Below are positions 2,657 to 5,425 of a stretch of 42,734 nucleotides of DNA, piece by piece. The position numbers were made by a program, and so were the translations under genes. Origin of the DNA: an uncultured Selenomonadaceae bacterium (GTDB lineage: Bacteria; Bacillota; Negativicutes; Selenomonadales; Selenomonadaceae); the NCBI GenBank assembly GCA_905236725.1, contig CAJOCT010000027.1, positions 3,833 through 46,566 of the forward strand, written 5' to 3'. Under the pieces are notes generated by a model, which was not told where the DNA came from, searched no databases, and saw only the letters and a program-made list of their open reading frames with translations. Position 1 is the first letter of the stretch. Each line of letters opens with the position of its first letter.

Positions 2657-3154
2657 ATGAAAGAATTTTCCATTCCGCTGAAAAAAGATTATCAGCGTCC
2701 TGTTATCGAGCTTTATAATTTACCGACTTTGATTGATACAGGCTCGGTCATTCCGGTTTTTTCGATGTATCAGCCAATATTTGAAAAATATTTTGAAACG
2801 AAATTGATTTTGGAAAATGAATCAATCGAGGGATTTGGCGGCAAAGAGAGAGGGTCTGTCTATTCGATAAAAAATTTTCAAGTCGGCGAGTTGATTTTTA
2901 ATGATTTTGAAGTTTTTGTTCCGAGAGAGCCGAGACTAAAATTTCCGTTTTTGTTGAGTGCGACGCTTTTTTACGGAATGAATTATGAAATTGACAATAT
3001 TAACGGAAATTTTATTGTGCGAATGAAAGACGAACAGAAATTTGAACGCGAATTTAAAATTAAAGAACTGCATGGAAAACTTTATCCGCAAATTGACGGC
3101 GTTTTAATTCAAGACGTTGACAGCTTTTTGATTGACCCGATGATTTTTTTCTAA
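2657..3154 (+). CDS. Retropepsin-like aspartic protease domain protein
   Basis: The product (165 aa) carries the retroviral-type aspartic protease signature: a hydrophobic run then Asp27-Thr28-Gly29-Ser in TLIDTGSVIPVF. A second block, PFLLSATLFYGMNYEID, lies where single-domain retropepsins have their C-terminal hydrophobic-Gly strand (usually ILGxxFL). Retropepsins act as homodimers, each chain giving one aspartate. There is no signal peptide or membrane segment, so it is probably cytosolic. It starts seven bases after the fhs stop behind GAGG, so it is likely co-transcribed with fhs, and a strong terminator follows. Substrate unknown. The fold call depends mainly on the DTG motif and would need structure prediction. 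Confidence 0.6.
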   Translation: MKEFSIPLKKDYQRPVIELYNLPTLIDTGSVIPVFSMYQPIFEKYFETKLILENESIEGFGGKERGSVYSIKNFQVGELIFNDFEVFVPREPRLKFPFLLSATLFYGMNYEIDNINGNFIVRMKDEQKFEREFKIKELHGKLYPQIDGVLIQDVDSFLIDPMIFF

Positions 3155-3172: not shown

Positions 3173-3211
3173 AAATCCTCCGACAAAAAAGTTGGAGGAT
3201 TTAATTTTTTC
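3173..3211 (+). terminator. Rho-independent terminator after the fhs operon
   Basis: A 12-bp stem, AAATCCTCCGAC (3173-3184) with GTTGGAGGATTT (3191-3202), closes a loop of six A and is followed by a T-rich run to 3210. One pair is a G-U wobble. Confidence 0.9.
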
Positions 3212-3225
3212 TTACCCCGCGGGTA

Positions 3226-3254
3226 AGGACAGTAAAAAATTTTTATGATACAAT
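3226..3254 (+). promoter_or_regulatory. Promoter of the coiled-coil operon
   Basis: AGGACA (3226-3231) and TACAAT (3249-3254) are 17 bases apart, matching the -35 and -10 consensus at four and five of six positions. The -35 overlaps the right arm of a small palindrome, CTTACCC/GGGTAAG (3211-3227), which could be an operator. The gene start at 3281 has a GGGGGTG ribosome site. Confidence 0.6.
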
Positions 3255-3280
3255 GAAAAAAATTTAGGGGGTGTGCGGCA

Positions 3281-4117
3281 ATGGGATTTTTTGATTTTCT
3301 CGATCCCGACGAAAGACGCTGGCGCAATGAAGCAAAGCAGGAGGCGCGGGAGTATCGTCAAGAGGCGAAAGAAATTTTATCCGACGCAAAAGATTTGTAC
3401 GACGATTACAAAGAATTAAAGTCTGACACTCAGCGCGTCGCGAACAAGCTCAGCGATTTTATCAGAAGTTACAACAGTTACAAAGCGGATTTGCTGAAAG
3501 ATTTGGGTGGGGACATCAACAACACGATAGAAAATTTTAAGCGTTTCAACATCAGCAGCCGCGTGATTTCTGTCCCGAAAATCGGCGACAGTTACGCGCC
3601 GACCGTTTCAGTTTTTTCCGCATCAAATTTTATGCCCGACGCGGGTTTAAATCCGATAAGTTTGATTTTTTCCTCGCTCAGCGACCCTTATAAAGACATA
3701 GACAAGGCGATTGACGAGCGCGACAAAGCACGAGATTATTTCTACAAAGTGCAAGACGCTTACAGCGAACTTAAAATTTTGTTTGAATCTCTCAACGGCA
3801 CGAAAAAATTTATTGAGAGCGACAGAGAAAATTTAACGCAACTTGCCGAAAAAATTCGCAGTCTTGTCGGTCAGCTTAAAAACGCGATGAACAGAAATTC
3901 TTTTACCGAAAATGAAGCGCGTTACATGACGGGGATTTCAAAAATTGCCGAATTGATAAAAAATTCTTTGGAGCAGAGAATCGCCGATAATTCCGGCAAC
4001 GTTGAGAAAAATTACAGGCAATACAGCGACAAACTCAAAAGCATAAATAATTTAATTCCCGCCGCTCCCAAAATTGAAAATTCCTCGACCTGGCTCGACC
4101 GTATCATAAATTACTGA
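3281..4117 (+). CDS. Hypothetical coiled-coil protein, first gene of a four-gene operon
   Basis: I do not recognise this 278-aa protein. Residues 10-60 are a highly charged helix rich in Glu, Lys, Arg and Asp that should form a coiled coil. Residues 80-125 are less charged (ISVPKIGDSYAPTVSVFSASNF) and may be a small beta or linker region. Residues 140-255 are again long helices. The first nine residues, MGFFDFLDP, are hydrophobic and amphipathic, but there is no signal peptide or transmembrane segment. It has its own promoter after a terminator and is followed 12 bases later by the next gene. The all-helical character is shared with the three genes after it, suggesting a complex. Confidence 0.8.
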   Translation: MGFFDFLDPDERRWRNEAKQEAREYRQEAKEILSDAKDLYDDYKELKSDTQRVANKLSDFIRSYNSYKADLLKDLGGDINNTIENFKRFNISSRVISVPKIGDSYAPTVSVFSASNFMPDAGLNPISLIFSSLSDPYKDIDKAIDERDKARDYFYKVQDAYSELKILFESLNGTKKFIESDRENLTQLAEKIRSLVGQLKNAMNRNSFTENEARYMTGISKIAELIKNSLEQRIADNSGNVEKNYRQYSDKLKSINNLIPAAPKIENSSTWLDRIINY

Positions 4118-4129
4118 AAGGCAAAAAAA

Positions 4130-4483
4130 ATGTATCCTGCAAATTATTCCGAAGTCGATGTTATCGATTTTCTTCAGCAAATCGGAAATCTTTTTGAACA
4201 TTATTTGGCGAATCGCGAGGCAACACTGACACGGCGCGAAAAAAATTTTGCGGCTTTGCAAATGCGTTGCGAAAAATTGAAACGTCGTGAAGAACTTTTA
4301 AAAACTTTTTCAAAAAATTTTTTTAAGGAGCGCGAAAAAGTTTCTCAACTTGCGACAAAGGCACTCGACAGCGCGATTTTGCTCGGAGACGAAAATATAG
4401 CGGCGATTGCTCTTGAAATTTTGGACAATGAATATTCAAAAGATTTTTGCGACACCGTTAATAAAATTGGAGGGATTTTATGA
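4130..4483 (+). CDS. Hypothetical helical protein, second gene of the coiled-coil operon
   Basis: A 117-aa unrecognised protein. Residues 25-75 form a Lys/Arg/Glu-rich coiled coil (REKNFAALQMRCEKLKRREELL). Residues 78-105 (ALDSAILLGDENIAAIALEIL) look like a compact two-helix segment. There is no signal peptide or membrane segment. The stop overlaps the next start by four bases (ATGA at 4480-4483), so the two are translationally coupled. AAAGG lies before the ATG. Confidence 0.75.
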   Translation: MYPANYSEVDVIDFLQQIGNLFEHYLANREATLTRREKNFAALQMRCEKLKRREELLKTFSKNFFKEREKVSQLATKALDSAILLGDENIAAIALEILDNEYSKDFCDTVNKIGGIL

Positions 4484-4854
4484 GCCCGGCAATTCCCGCC
4501 GAAATAGGTTTGTCGATTGTAAAAGATTTGATTACTGCGGCGGCAAATTATCAAATGTGCAAGGAACAGGAGCGGACGAAACGACTGCAAATTGAGGCGC
4601 AACTGGAAGCCTGTTTGACTGCCATAAATAAAAATCACGCGCAATATGATAAAATTTTCGCGGCGAATCACGAATACGCGATGAAGGCTTATGCAGCGGC
4701 AGAAAATTTATTAAACAGCCCCGCGGTCACGACCAACGCAAATTTCCTTCATCAAGTTTTGAATTTTTTGCAAAATGCACACAAAACGGCGAGCGGAGAT
4801 TTAGTTTCGCTGGCAAATGCCATTTCGTCCGTGCCGTTGCCGAAAATCGGGTGA
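4480..4854 (+). CDS. Hypothetical helical protein, third gene of the coiled-coil operon
   Basis: A 124-aa unrecognised protein. The N-terminus PAIPAEIGLSIVKDLITAAANY is an alanine/isoleucine-rich helix that could be amphipathic or weakly membrane-associating. A charged helix (residues 28-60) and a C-terminal helical region follow. GGAGGG lies before the ATG. Its stop overlaps the next start (GTGA at 4851-4854). Tight overlaps on both sides suggest fixed stoichiometry with its neighbours. Confidence 0.75.
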   Translation: MSPAIPAEIGLSIVKDLITAAANYQMCKEQERTKRLQIEAQLEACLTAINKNHAQYDKIFAANHEYAMKAYAAAENLLNSPAVTTNANFLHQVLNFLQNAHKTASGDLVSLANAISSVPLPKIG

Positions 4855-5114
4855 CTGCCATGACGAAAGACCAAGAAAACGCATTGCAAAAACATCTGCA
4901 GGAAAATTCGTTAAAAGTGGCGGCAGTCGTTCAAGCTGAAAATTTAAAGCGCGAATCAATCAAAAAAACTGTTCGCGACTTCAACAAGGTCGTTGCGGAG
5001 CGCGAAGAAAAAATTGATTCGGCTCTGCAAGAAAAAATCGACGCAAGAAATGCCGAACTGAATTCACAGATTGAAAATTTAACGGCTTTGATTAAAAATC
5101 AAAATGCGAAGTGA
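4851..5114 (+). CDS. Hypothetical short coiled-coil protein, last gene of the operon
   Basis: An 87-aa, almost wholly helical and highly charged protein; residues 15-85 have heptad-like spacing (REEKIDSALQEKIDARNAEL). It has no cysteine, signal peptide or membrane segment. GTG 4851 overlaps the upstream stop, while ATG 4860 is an alternative that would shorten it by three residues. No terminator is visible directly after it; the 6S-like RNA promoter begins 47 bases downstream. Confidence 0.7.
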   Translation: MTAMTKDQENALQKHLQENSLKVAAVVQAENLKRESIKKTVRDFNKVVAEREEKIDSALQEKIDARNAELNSQIENLTALIKNQNAK

Positions 5115-5160: not shown

Positions 5161-5189
5161 TTGTAATGAAAAAATTTTTATGTTATTAT
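5161..5189 (+). promoter_or_regulatory. Promoter of the 6S-like RNA
   Basis: TTGTAA (5161-5166) and TATTAT (5184-5189) are separated by 17 bases. Transcription would begin near 5196, at the base of the closing stem of the RNA. No coding gene follows on this strand before a terminator. Confidence 0.65.
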
Positions 5190-5195
5190 ACCCGA

Positions 5196-5425
5196 AGAGA
5201 AGGGACAGTCTGGAGTGTGCGAGGACTTTGGTAATGTCTAACCTACATTTATTAAAGGGAATCTGAATTGTGTCGGCGGATGGAGAATTGTATTATCTAT
5301 AAGTAACAGAAACCGCGCTGAGATGCCCACCTGCAATACGCAGGTTCTAGACATTTGGAGAATACGGCATTTTTGGACTCCTTTTTTAAAAGGGATTGCT
5401 GATTGTTAATCGGCAGTCTCTTTTT
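5196..5425 (+). ncRNA. ssrS: Probable 6S RNA
   Basis: This free-standing transcription unit has its own promoter, no credible ORF and a terminator. 6S RNA binds housekeeping RNA polymerase by imitating an open promoter. The 3' half contains GCCCACCTGC, a five-base loop and GCAGGTTC (about 5324-5346), the small hairpin on the 3' side of the central bubble that is conserved in 6S RNAs of several phyla. The ends can pair (AAGG, AGTC and AGTGTGC near 5200-5220 with GCATTTTT, GACT and CCTT near 5367-5385), giving the closing stem. The mature 3' end is probably near 5385-5390. The call comes from remembered 6S features, not from a covariance search. Confidence 0.65.
5392..5425 (+). terminator. Terminator of the 6S-like RNA
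   Basis: A 13-bp stem (5392-5404 with 5408-5420, three G-U pairs) with a three-base loop is followed by TTTTT. Confidence 0.85.

Follow-up and report, generated by a model that had tools for sequence, protein, structure and literature searches.

A conserved four-gene operon of Selenomonadaceae encodes soluble helical proteins with sequence kinship to the candidate defence system PDC-M09

A four-gene operon of an uncultured rumen bacterium of the Selenomonadaceae, here called P1-P4, was found to be real, conserved and outside every family database searched, lying near the candidate system PDC-M09 without being a member of it by the PADLOC models. We read it, with little more belief than doubt, as a mobile accessory operon for a soluble, subunit-split relative of PDC-M09, probably an anti-phage helical heteromer. 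Homology to PDC-M09 is supported by the comparisons described below; the complex, its membrane contact and its anti-phage role are inferred. Four proteins without a family thereby gain a relative, and hence a testable idea, and an uncharacterised candidate defence module is extended. The PDC systems of PADLOC are described, in the part of the source available, as unvalidated candidates from a guilt-by-embedding approach (PMC12988326). The term PDC-M09 was not found in the literature searched, and the features used here to define it come from our reading of its members rather than from a paper.

The window, that is, the whole stretch of 42,734 nucleotides that was analysed, corresponds to positions 3833-46566 of contig C27 in a 2.65-Mb assembly that is 97% complete (G000, referred to as the own genome). 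The four open reading frames of 278, 117, 124 and 87 aa reported in the first-pass annotation, with their ATGA and GTGA overlaps, are present in the ORF list and in the sequence, all on the forward strand. P1 occupies 3281..4117 and is followed after 12 nt by P2 (4130..4483), P3 (4480..4854) starts inside the ATGA overlap at 4480-4483, and P4 (4851..5114), the least conserved of the four, begins with the GTG of the GTGA overlap at 4851-4854, an ATG at 4860 being a second possible start. An upstream terminator and a promoter of the operon's own had also been claimed, and both have a counterpart in the sequence: an intrinsic terminator of the gene upstream at 3173..3202 (forward strand), with a 12-bp stem and a T-rich tail, and a promoter-like site with an extended -10 at 3226..3254 (forward strand; AGGACA-17-TACAAT, TG preceding the -10), a consensus match only, just 5' of the P1 start. 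Promoter-like sites numbered 12 against 6.1 expected from shuffles and terminator-like sites 4 against 4.2, and such scan counts alone prove neither element. Internal stops were absent from all 20 P1-P4 genes of five genus genomes, and dN/dS ranged from 0.05 to 0.55 wherever dS was computable for these loci. Because they are intact in five genomes and have these dN/dS values, the P1-P4 frames are real genes and not chance ORFs.

The window copy lies between a region of folate-pathway and housekeeping genes and a 6S RNA; it has no Cro/C1-type regulator and is away from recA, a position that counts against the reading preferred here. The 6S RNA (RF00013, 49.3 bits) is found at 5204-5383, directly 3' of the operon, with its own promoter-like site at 5161-5189. 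Upstream of the operon, a 165-aa protein without a Pfam match is encoded at 2657-3154; its LIDTGS motif suggests, by eye, a retropepsin-like fold, and it matched PDC-M08B of PADLOC weakly (E 0.0024). In an empty-site test, 30 loci from 66 genomes were searched for the window flanks, namely the folate gene, the gene for the 165-aa protein and the downstream genes around the 6S RNA; one of the 29 non-window loci shared anything, a weak ATPase match, which is too little for a reconstruction of the insertion site.

The earlier statement that the proteins cannot be placed in a family held for direct searches and gave way in part under profile comparison, which brought P1 and P2 together with proteins of the PDC-M09 type and also joined P2 to P3. 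Searches of P1-P4 against Pfam, NCBIfam, PADLOC and PHROGs at E<=1 returned only sub-threshold coiled-coil matches, and no curated family claims any of the four; the matches to ATG17, Rad50, ZorA and LeoA-like proteins were of this kind and were not counted as evidence. Seven PADLOC families matched P1 at E<=1, PDC-M09A not among them, and no PDC-M09B match was obtained for P2, P3 or P4 at the same threshold. Searches of PDB sequences with the P1, P2 and P3 profiles found only designed helical repeats and similar entries.

In agreement with the initial description of the proteins as helical, the AlphaFold2 models of P1 and P3 were all-helical. The P1 model (mean pLDDT 77.7, pTM 0.62) has three long helices at residues 9-88, 136-203 and 210-256 and a low-confidence loop at 95-135, and the P3 model (mean pLDDT 79.5, pTM 0.44) has helices at 7-78 and 87-116. 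With these models Foldseek gave no match at E<=0.001, only common helical arrangements, and this lack of matches does not speak for a new fold. The top VIA-align hit, at Z 10.7, was a ciliary coiled coil (7n6g_3R, rmsd 24.0, 246 aligned), followed by values of at most 7.1. In the comparison with the PspA/Vipp1, ESCRT-III-like fold, Vipp1 and P3 gave a Foldseek E of 1.4 (prob 0.47). The BAR, iSH2, PspA and TelA/Lap-like rows of the fold list were given no weight as signs of homology, their Z level being common for helical bundles. The proteins had also been called soluble, and none of P1-P4 has a 19-residue window with a Kyte-Doolittle mean of at least 1.6, the best value for window P1 being 0.81. 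Most P1 relatives start with MG-[FIL]-[FL]-D; the proposal that the GFFDFL start of P1 or the helix of P3 brings the complex to the membrane found no backing, as nothing in the analysis shows either.

The strongest link to a known candidate concerns P1. A 331-aa protein of G017 is identified as PDC-M09A by PADLOC (E 1.6e-30), with further family members at E 1.1e-28 and 9.7e-36. As a single sequence it gave an hhalign value of 50.7% and a P1-profile E of 4.2e-5 and at first looked like coiled-coil noise; the link became clear because this single sequence was replaced by a family profile of ten members (L092-L100 and L125; PADLOC does not recognise L125, a relative of 293 aa). In hhalign, the seven-sequence P1 profile then aligned with the PDC-M09A family at 95.7% over 120 columns, P1 124-250 to 210-336, and none of 60 heptad-block-shuffled decoys reached the score. 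The match leaves the N-terminal half of P1 uncovered, and the short relatives of about 274 aa compared with P1 at 11%. As a specificity control, the HMMs were run against 4961 distinct open frames; these came from 172 loci, among them the coiled-coil noise loci that the P1 profile had drawn in. The PDC-M09A-family HMM produced 42 matches at E<=0.05, all of which we read, by locus and by overlap with the other HMMs, as PDC-M09A family, relatives of about 274 aa, or P1, with none from a noise locus. It recovered P1 in six of the seven P1 loci (window 2.2e-5), missing that of G278. In the reverse direction, the best non-P1 match of the P1 HMM was a PDC-M09A-type protein at 3.4e-12; since noise begins at 1.3e-4, weaker reverse matches do not count. 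On these sequence-profile computations, P1 is shown to have in its C-terminal half a diverged version of the C-terminal helical domain of PDC-M09A. Similarity between helical proteins can also arise without shared ancestry, a concern that the decoys address only in part. The loop of P1 at 95-135 stands at the position of the PDC-M09A hydrophobic segment and is hydrophobic in relatives; P1 from the window and from G278 and G094 had 0 hydropathy windows of at least 1.6, and the own-genome PDC-M09A had 13. Besides PDC-M09A, the operon of the own genome (L126 3463-9347, G000:C3) has genes for a Gly-zipper partner, for a cysteine-rich protein of 91 aa and for a radical-SAM-like protein.

The small subunits are related to one another. 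The P2 and P3 profiles aligned at 95% over 104 columns, nearly end to end, with a score of 51.4 against a decoy maximum of 22.4, so that none of 100 decoys, made by block-shuffling the P3 profile seven columns at a time, came close to the score; the P3 profile also matched own-genome P2 at E 4.6e-4. These profile comparisons make P2 and P3 paralogues, and P4 probably belongs with them as a third: P3 and P4 gave 68% in one profile comparison and 50% in another (0 of 100 decoys), a weaker link that is helped by the match of the P3 HMM to G278 P4 at 1.4e-5. Profiles of P2 and P4 compared at decoy level, as did P1 with P2, P3 and P4, where no relation was seen. A 123-aa relative of P2/P3 (E 1.8e-12 with the P3 profile) occurs in G463, a distant genome of the phylum (L091 9446-9817), where it stands alone and in no operon with P1.

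The PDC-M09A-type genes that we read adjoin a gene whose product is a Gly-zipper protein ending in a helical domain; in PADLOC one such partner is PDC-M09B (E 2.2e-10), and the own-genome partner is unrecognised. P2 compared with eleven partner C-terminal domains at 85.7%, and the combination of P2, P3 and the G463 protein at 86.8%, each with 0 of 60 decoys reaching the score. P3 alone scored 18.0, little above the highest decoy at 16.3, and P4 and P1 were at decoy level. A resemblance of P2 to the C-terminal helical domain of the PDC-M09B-type partner is thus supported by profile comparison, more weakly than the link between P1 and PDC-M09A.

The P3 profile found the operon in five of 66 genus genomes (G000, G016, G034, G062 and G075), and the P1 profile matched seven of 380 class genomes strongly, these five together with the distant Negativicutes G278 and G094; its other class matches were at coiled-coil noise level, except for that in G017 (E 4.2e-5). 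In plasmids, phages and viral contigs no match to P1 was obtained, nor any to P3 in plasmids and phages or to G094 P3 in plasmids. Each of the five genus loci has all four genes in full and in the sequence P1-P2-P3-P4. G278 has P1-P2-P3, an FtsZ-like gene and then P4, and G094 has P1-P2-P3 and no P4. The prediction that the genes travel as one operon is borne out, frequent separation, which had been named as its refutation, being absent: P1-P2-P3 are ordered in seven of seven loci and P4 is present in six of seven. The genus insertion sites differ, being recA/recX in G016 and G062 and the folate region-6S RNA interval in the window, while in G034 and G075 the operon stands 3' of a zinc-ribbon gene.

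In two genomes, G016 and G062, the operon is flanked by a gene for a Cro/C1-type HTH regulator on one side and by recA on the other. Relatives of this regulator occur in 35 of 66 genus genomes, and 16 close copies (at least 78% identity over most of the length) were examined. Ten of these stand shortly before recA (G062, G069, G033, G086, G031, G021, G076, G016, G010 and G022). The cargo of this slot (loci L158-L166, L119, L021 and L023) is P1-P4 in two of the ten (G016, G062) and an operon for a Gly-zipper, a ~274-aa and a ferredoxin protein in two others (G022, G086), which we label PDC-M09-like solely from the PDC-M09B match of its Gly-zipper protein, the ~274-aa and ferredoxin proteins having no PADLOC match. 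The remaining cargo consists of small MGFFS-type proteins, a 440-aa zinc-ribbon protein or HNH-like genes; the names HNH-like, zinc-ribbon and ferredoxin for slot genes are sequence readings with no above-cut-off database match behind them. By eye, the zinc-ribbon protein of the G076 slot resembles that preceding P1 in G034 and G075. Three regulator copies elsewhere (G017:C22, G036 and G065) precede the Gly-zipper/~274-aa/ferredoxin operon. Since the same regulator-recA slot elsewhere holds the PDC-M09-like operon, HNH-like genes or small proteins, P1-P4 behaves like the cargo of a variable locus of defence type, in exchange with that operon. The stress or defence role put forward in the first-pass annotation is supported as possible, and the slot is a place to seek more unknown defence-type modules in rumen Selenomonadaceae. 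In G066, two GTPase-like genes lie 3' of a relative of the HTH regulator (L171 1636-3343).

P1-P4 is like PDC-M09 in that P1 has the C-terminal helical domain of the A protein, P2 resembles that of B-type partners, and the operon and a PDC-M09-like operon can occupy the same regulator-recA slot. Unlike PDC-M09, it has neither the Gly-rich transmembrane hairpin nor the Gly zipper, consists of four small genes instead of two large ones and is undetected by the PADLOC models. The three-gene operon of the genus (Gly-zipper protein, ~274-aa short A relative and ~331-aa ferredoxin-helical protein; G017:C22, G036, G065, G022 and G086) has the same Cro/C1-type regulator upstream and in two genomes the same slot before recA, but it has Gly-zipper and ferredoxin-like proteins absent from P1-P4, and its 274-aa protein matches P1 only weakly. 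The bacterial dynamin operon LeoABC, as covered by the part of the source available (PMC4159319), gave weak PADLOC matches to P1 (LeoA 8.3e-5, LeoBC 0.0011), and own-genome PDC-M09A matched LeoBC at 1e-6; however, no GTPase is encoded in the P1-P4 operon, and the P1 matches are at coiled-coil noise level.

We suggest that P1 would form a long three-helix scaffold and that P2, P3 and P4 would be small helical subunits, together making one cytosolic heteromeric complex derived from, or sister to, the PDC-M09-type complex. In PDC-M09 the matching helical parts may be held at the membrane by the Gly-rich hairpin of A and the Gly zipper of B; in P1-P4 such anchoring would have been lost, leaving only the P1 loop at 95-135 and the MG-[FIL]-[FL]-D start as parts that could touch the membrane. 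Infection or stress might then cause the complex to rearrange so that phage is blocked or the cell is arrested, a step at which we can only guess. A soluble version would be easier to purify and solve than a membrane-bound one and could be a practical route to the mechanism of PDC-M09. More tentatively, and with rather more doubt than belief, P1-P4 may represent an undescribed membrane-free, subunit-split branch of a PDC-M09 superfamily, in which the Gly-zipper partner was broken into two or three helical paralogues, the operon became cargo of the regulator-recA slot, and one lineage took in an FtsZ homologue that has no obvious GTP-binding loop. If true, that lineage would have a defence complex built on a tubulin-like pseudo-GTPase.

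The alternative that we take most seriously, while thinking it unlikely, would make P1-P4 an ordinary accessory operon that has a general part in stress or at the envelope and nothing to do with phage, while its relatives would carry a mistaken PDC label. PDC systems are untested candidates and the window copy adjoins folate metabolism and 6S RNA genes, which would fit such a role, whereas the patchy distribution, the several insertion sites and the exchange slot common with HNH-like cargo argue against it. Improbable in our judgement is a regulator, decoy or immunity module whose soluble helical-domain copies titrate or restrain a PDC-M09-type complex of the same cell. The soluble parts do resemble that complex's own domains, and a separate PDC-M09A/Gly-zipper operon is found in the own genome (contig C3) and in G034 (L127), two of the four genus carriers considered, G075 being left out; but G016 and G062 have P1-P4 and no PDC-M09A match at E<=0.001 in assemblies of 86% and 83% completeness, and dependence is therefore no general feature; identity is also very low for a direct decoy.

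An FtsZ-linked cytoskeletal module was our first idea, from G278, and was demoted when no P1-P4 genes were seen beside the FtsZ-like copies of G280 and G286. It would make P1-P4 a cytoskeletal or membrane-remodelling coiled-coil scaffold with a tubulin/FtsZ-like partner, the window copy using an FtsZ relative encoded elsewhere, and we regard it as no better a prospect than the decoy. In G278 the gene between P3 and P4 specifies a protein with an FtsZ_C domain (E 1.6e-12), the own genome has a short FtsZ-like gene right after ftsZ (contig C57), and P1 showed BAR/iSH2-like long helices in the fold list. Yet an FtsZ-like gene occurs in one of seven P1-P4 loci, the close relative of the G278 gene in G280 adjoins an ATPase gene and not P1-P4, and the fold matches of P1 are of a common helical kind with none at Foldseek E<=0.001. 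As described in the part of the source available (PMC2875224), FtsZl1/vWA membrane-remodelling operons are like the G278 locus in combining coiled-coil proteins with an FtsZ-like gene, but the FtsZ-like, vWA and GTPase genes are absent from the window operon, and the G278 FtsZ-like protein is of a different, short type from FtsZl1. Least credible, and very unlikely in our view, is a secreted or pore-forming helical system, either a multi-part alpha-pore-forming toxin or a type VII secretion cargo of LXG/Lap type. It would be suited by the long helices of P1, by the hydrophobic character of the P1 loop in relatives, by weak matches to MakB (E 0.032) and WXG100 (0.048), and by a VIA-align Z of 6.2 to the Lap protein 8gmh_C (rmsd 3.6, 128 aligned). 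Against these, no EssC-type ATPase scored above the TIGR03928 cut-off in any of eight genomes, several of them incomplete assemblies, P1 has no toxin domain and in the window reaches only the hydropathy maximum given above, and a Z of about 6 is ordinary for helical bundles. We retain the soluble PDC-M09 relative as the preferred reading.

Further observations were made around the G278 locus and its FtsZ-like gene. A CRISPR-like array of 13 repeats (L019 6982-7908) lies immediately before the P1 homologue of G278, with no cas gene seen within 13.7 kb, and upstream of the array and the P1-P4 genes an AAA ATPase (L019 4434-6302) matching PDC-M37B (5.6e-32) and DolB (1.7e-20) is accompanied by a radical-SAM-type protein. 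Short FtsZ-like proteins are encoded at L019 9984-10778 (G278), L081 8591-9427, L082 7294-8040 and L084 109-1173, three of them with FtsZ_C; they appear to have no GTP-binding loop, and some adjoin ATPase genes, pointing to a possible family of FtsZ-like pseudo-GTPases in Selenomonadaceae. In the 224-aa FtsZ-like protein of the own genome (L168 2358-3032, G000:C57), GIDAAGISAVN replaces, by eye, the usual Gly-rich loop.
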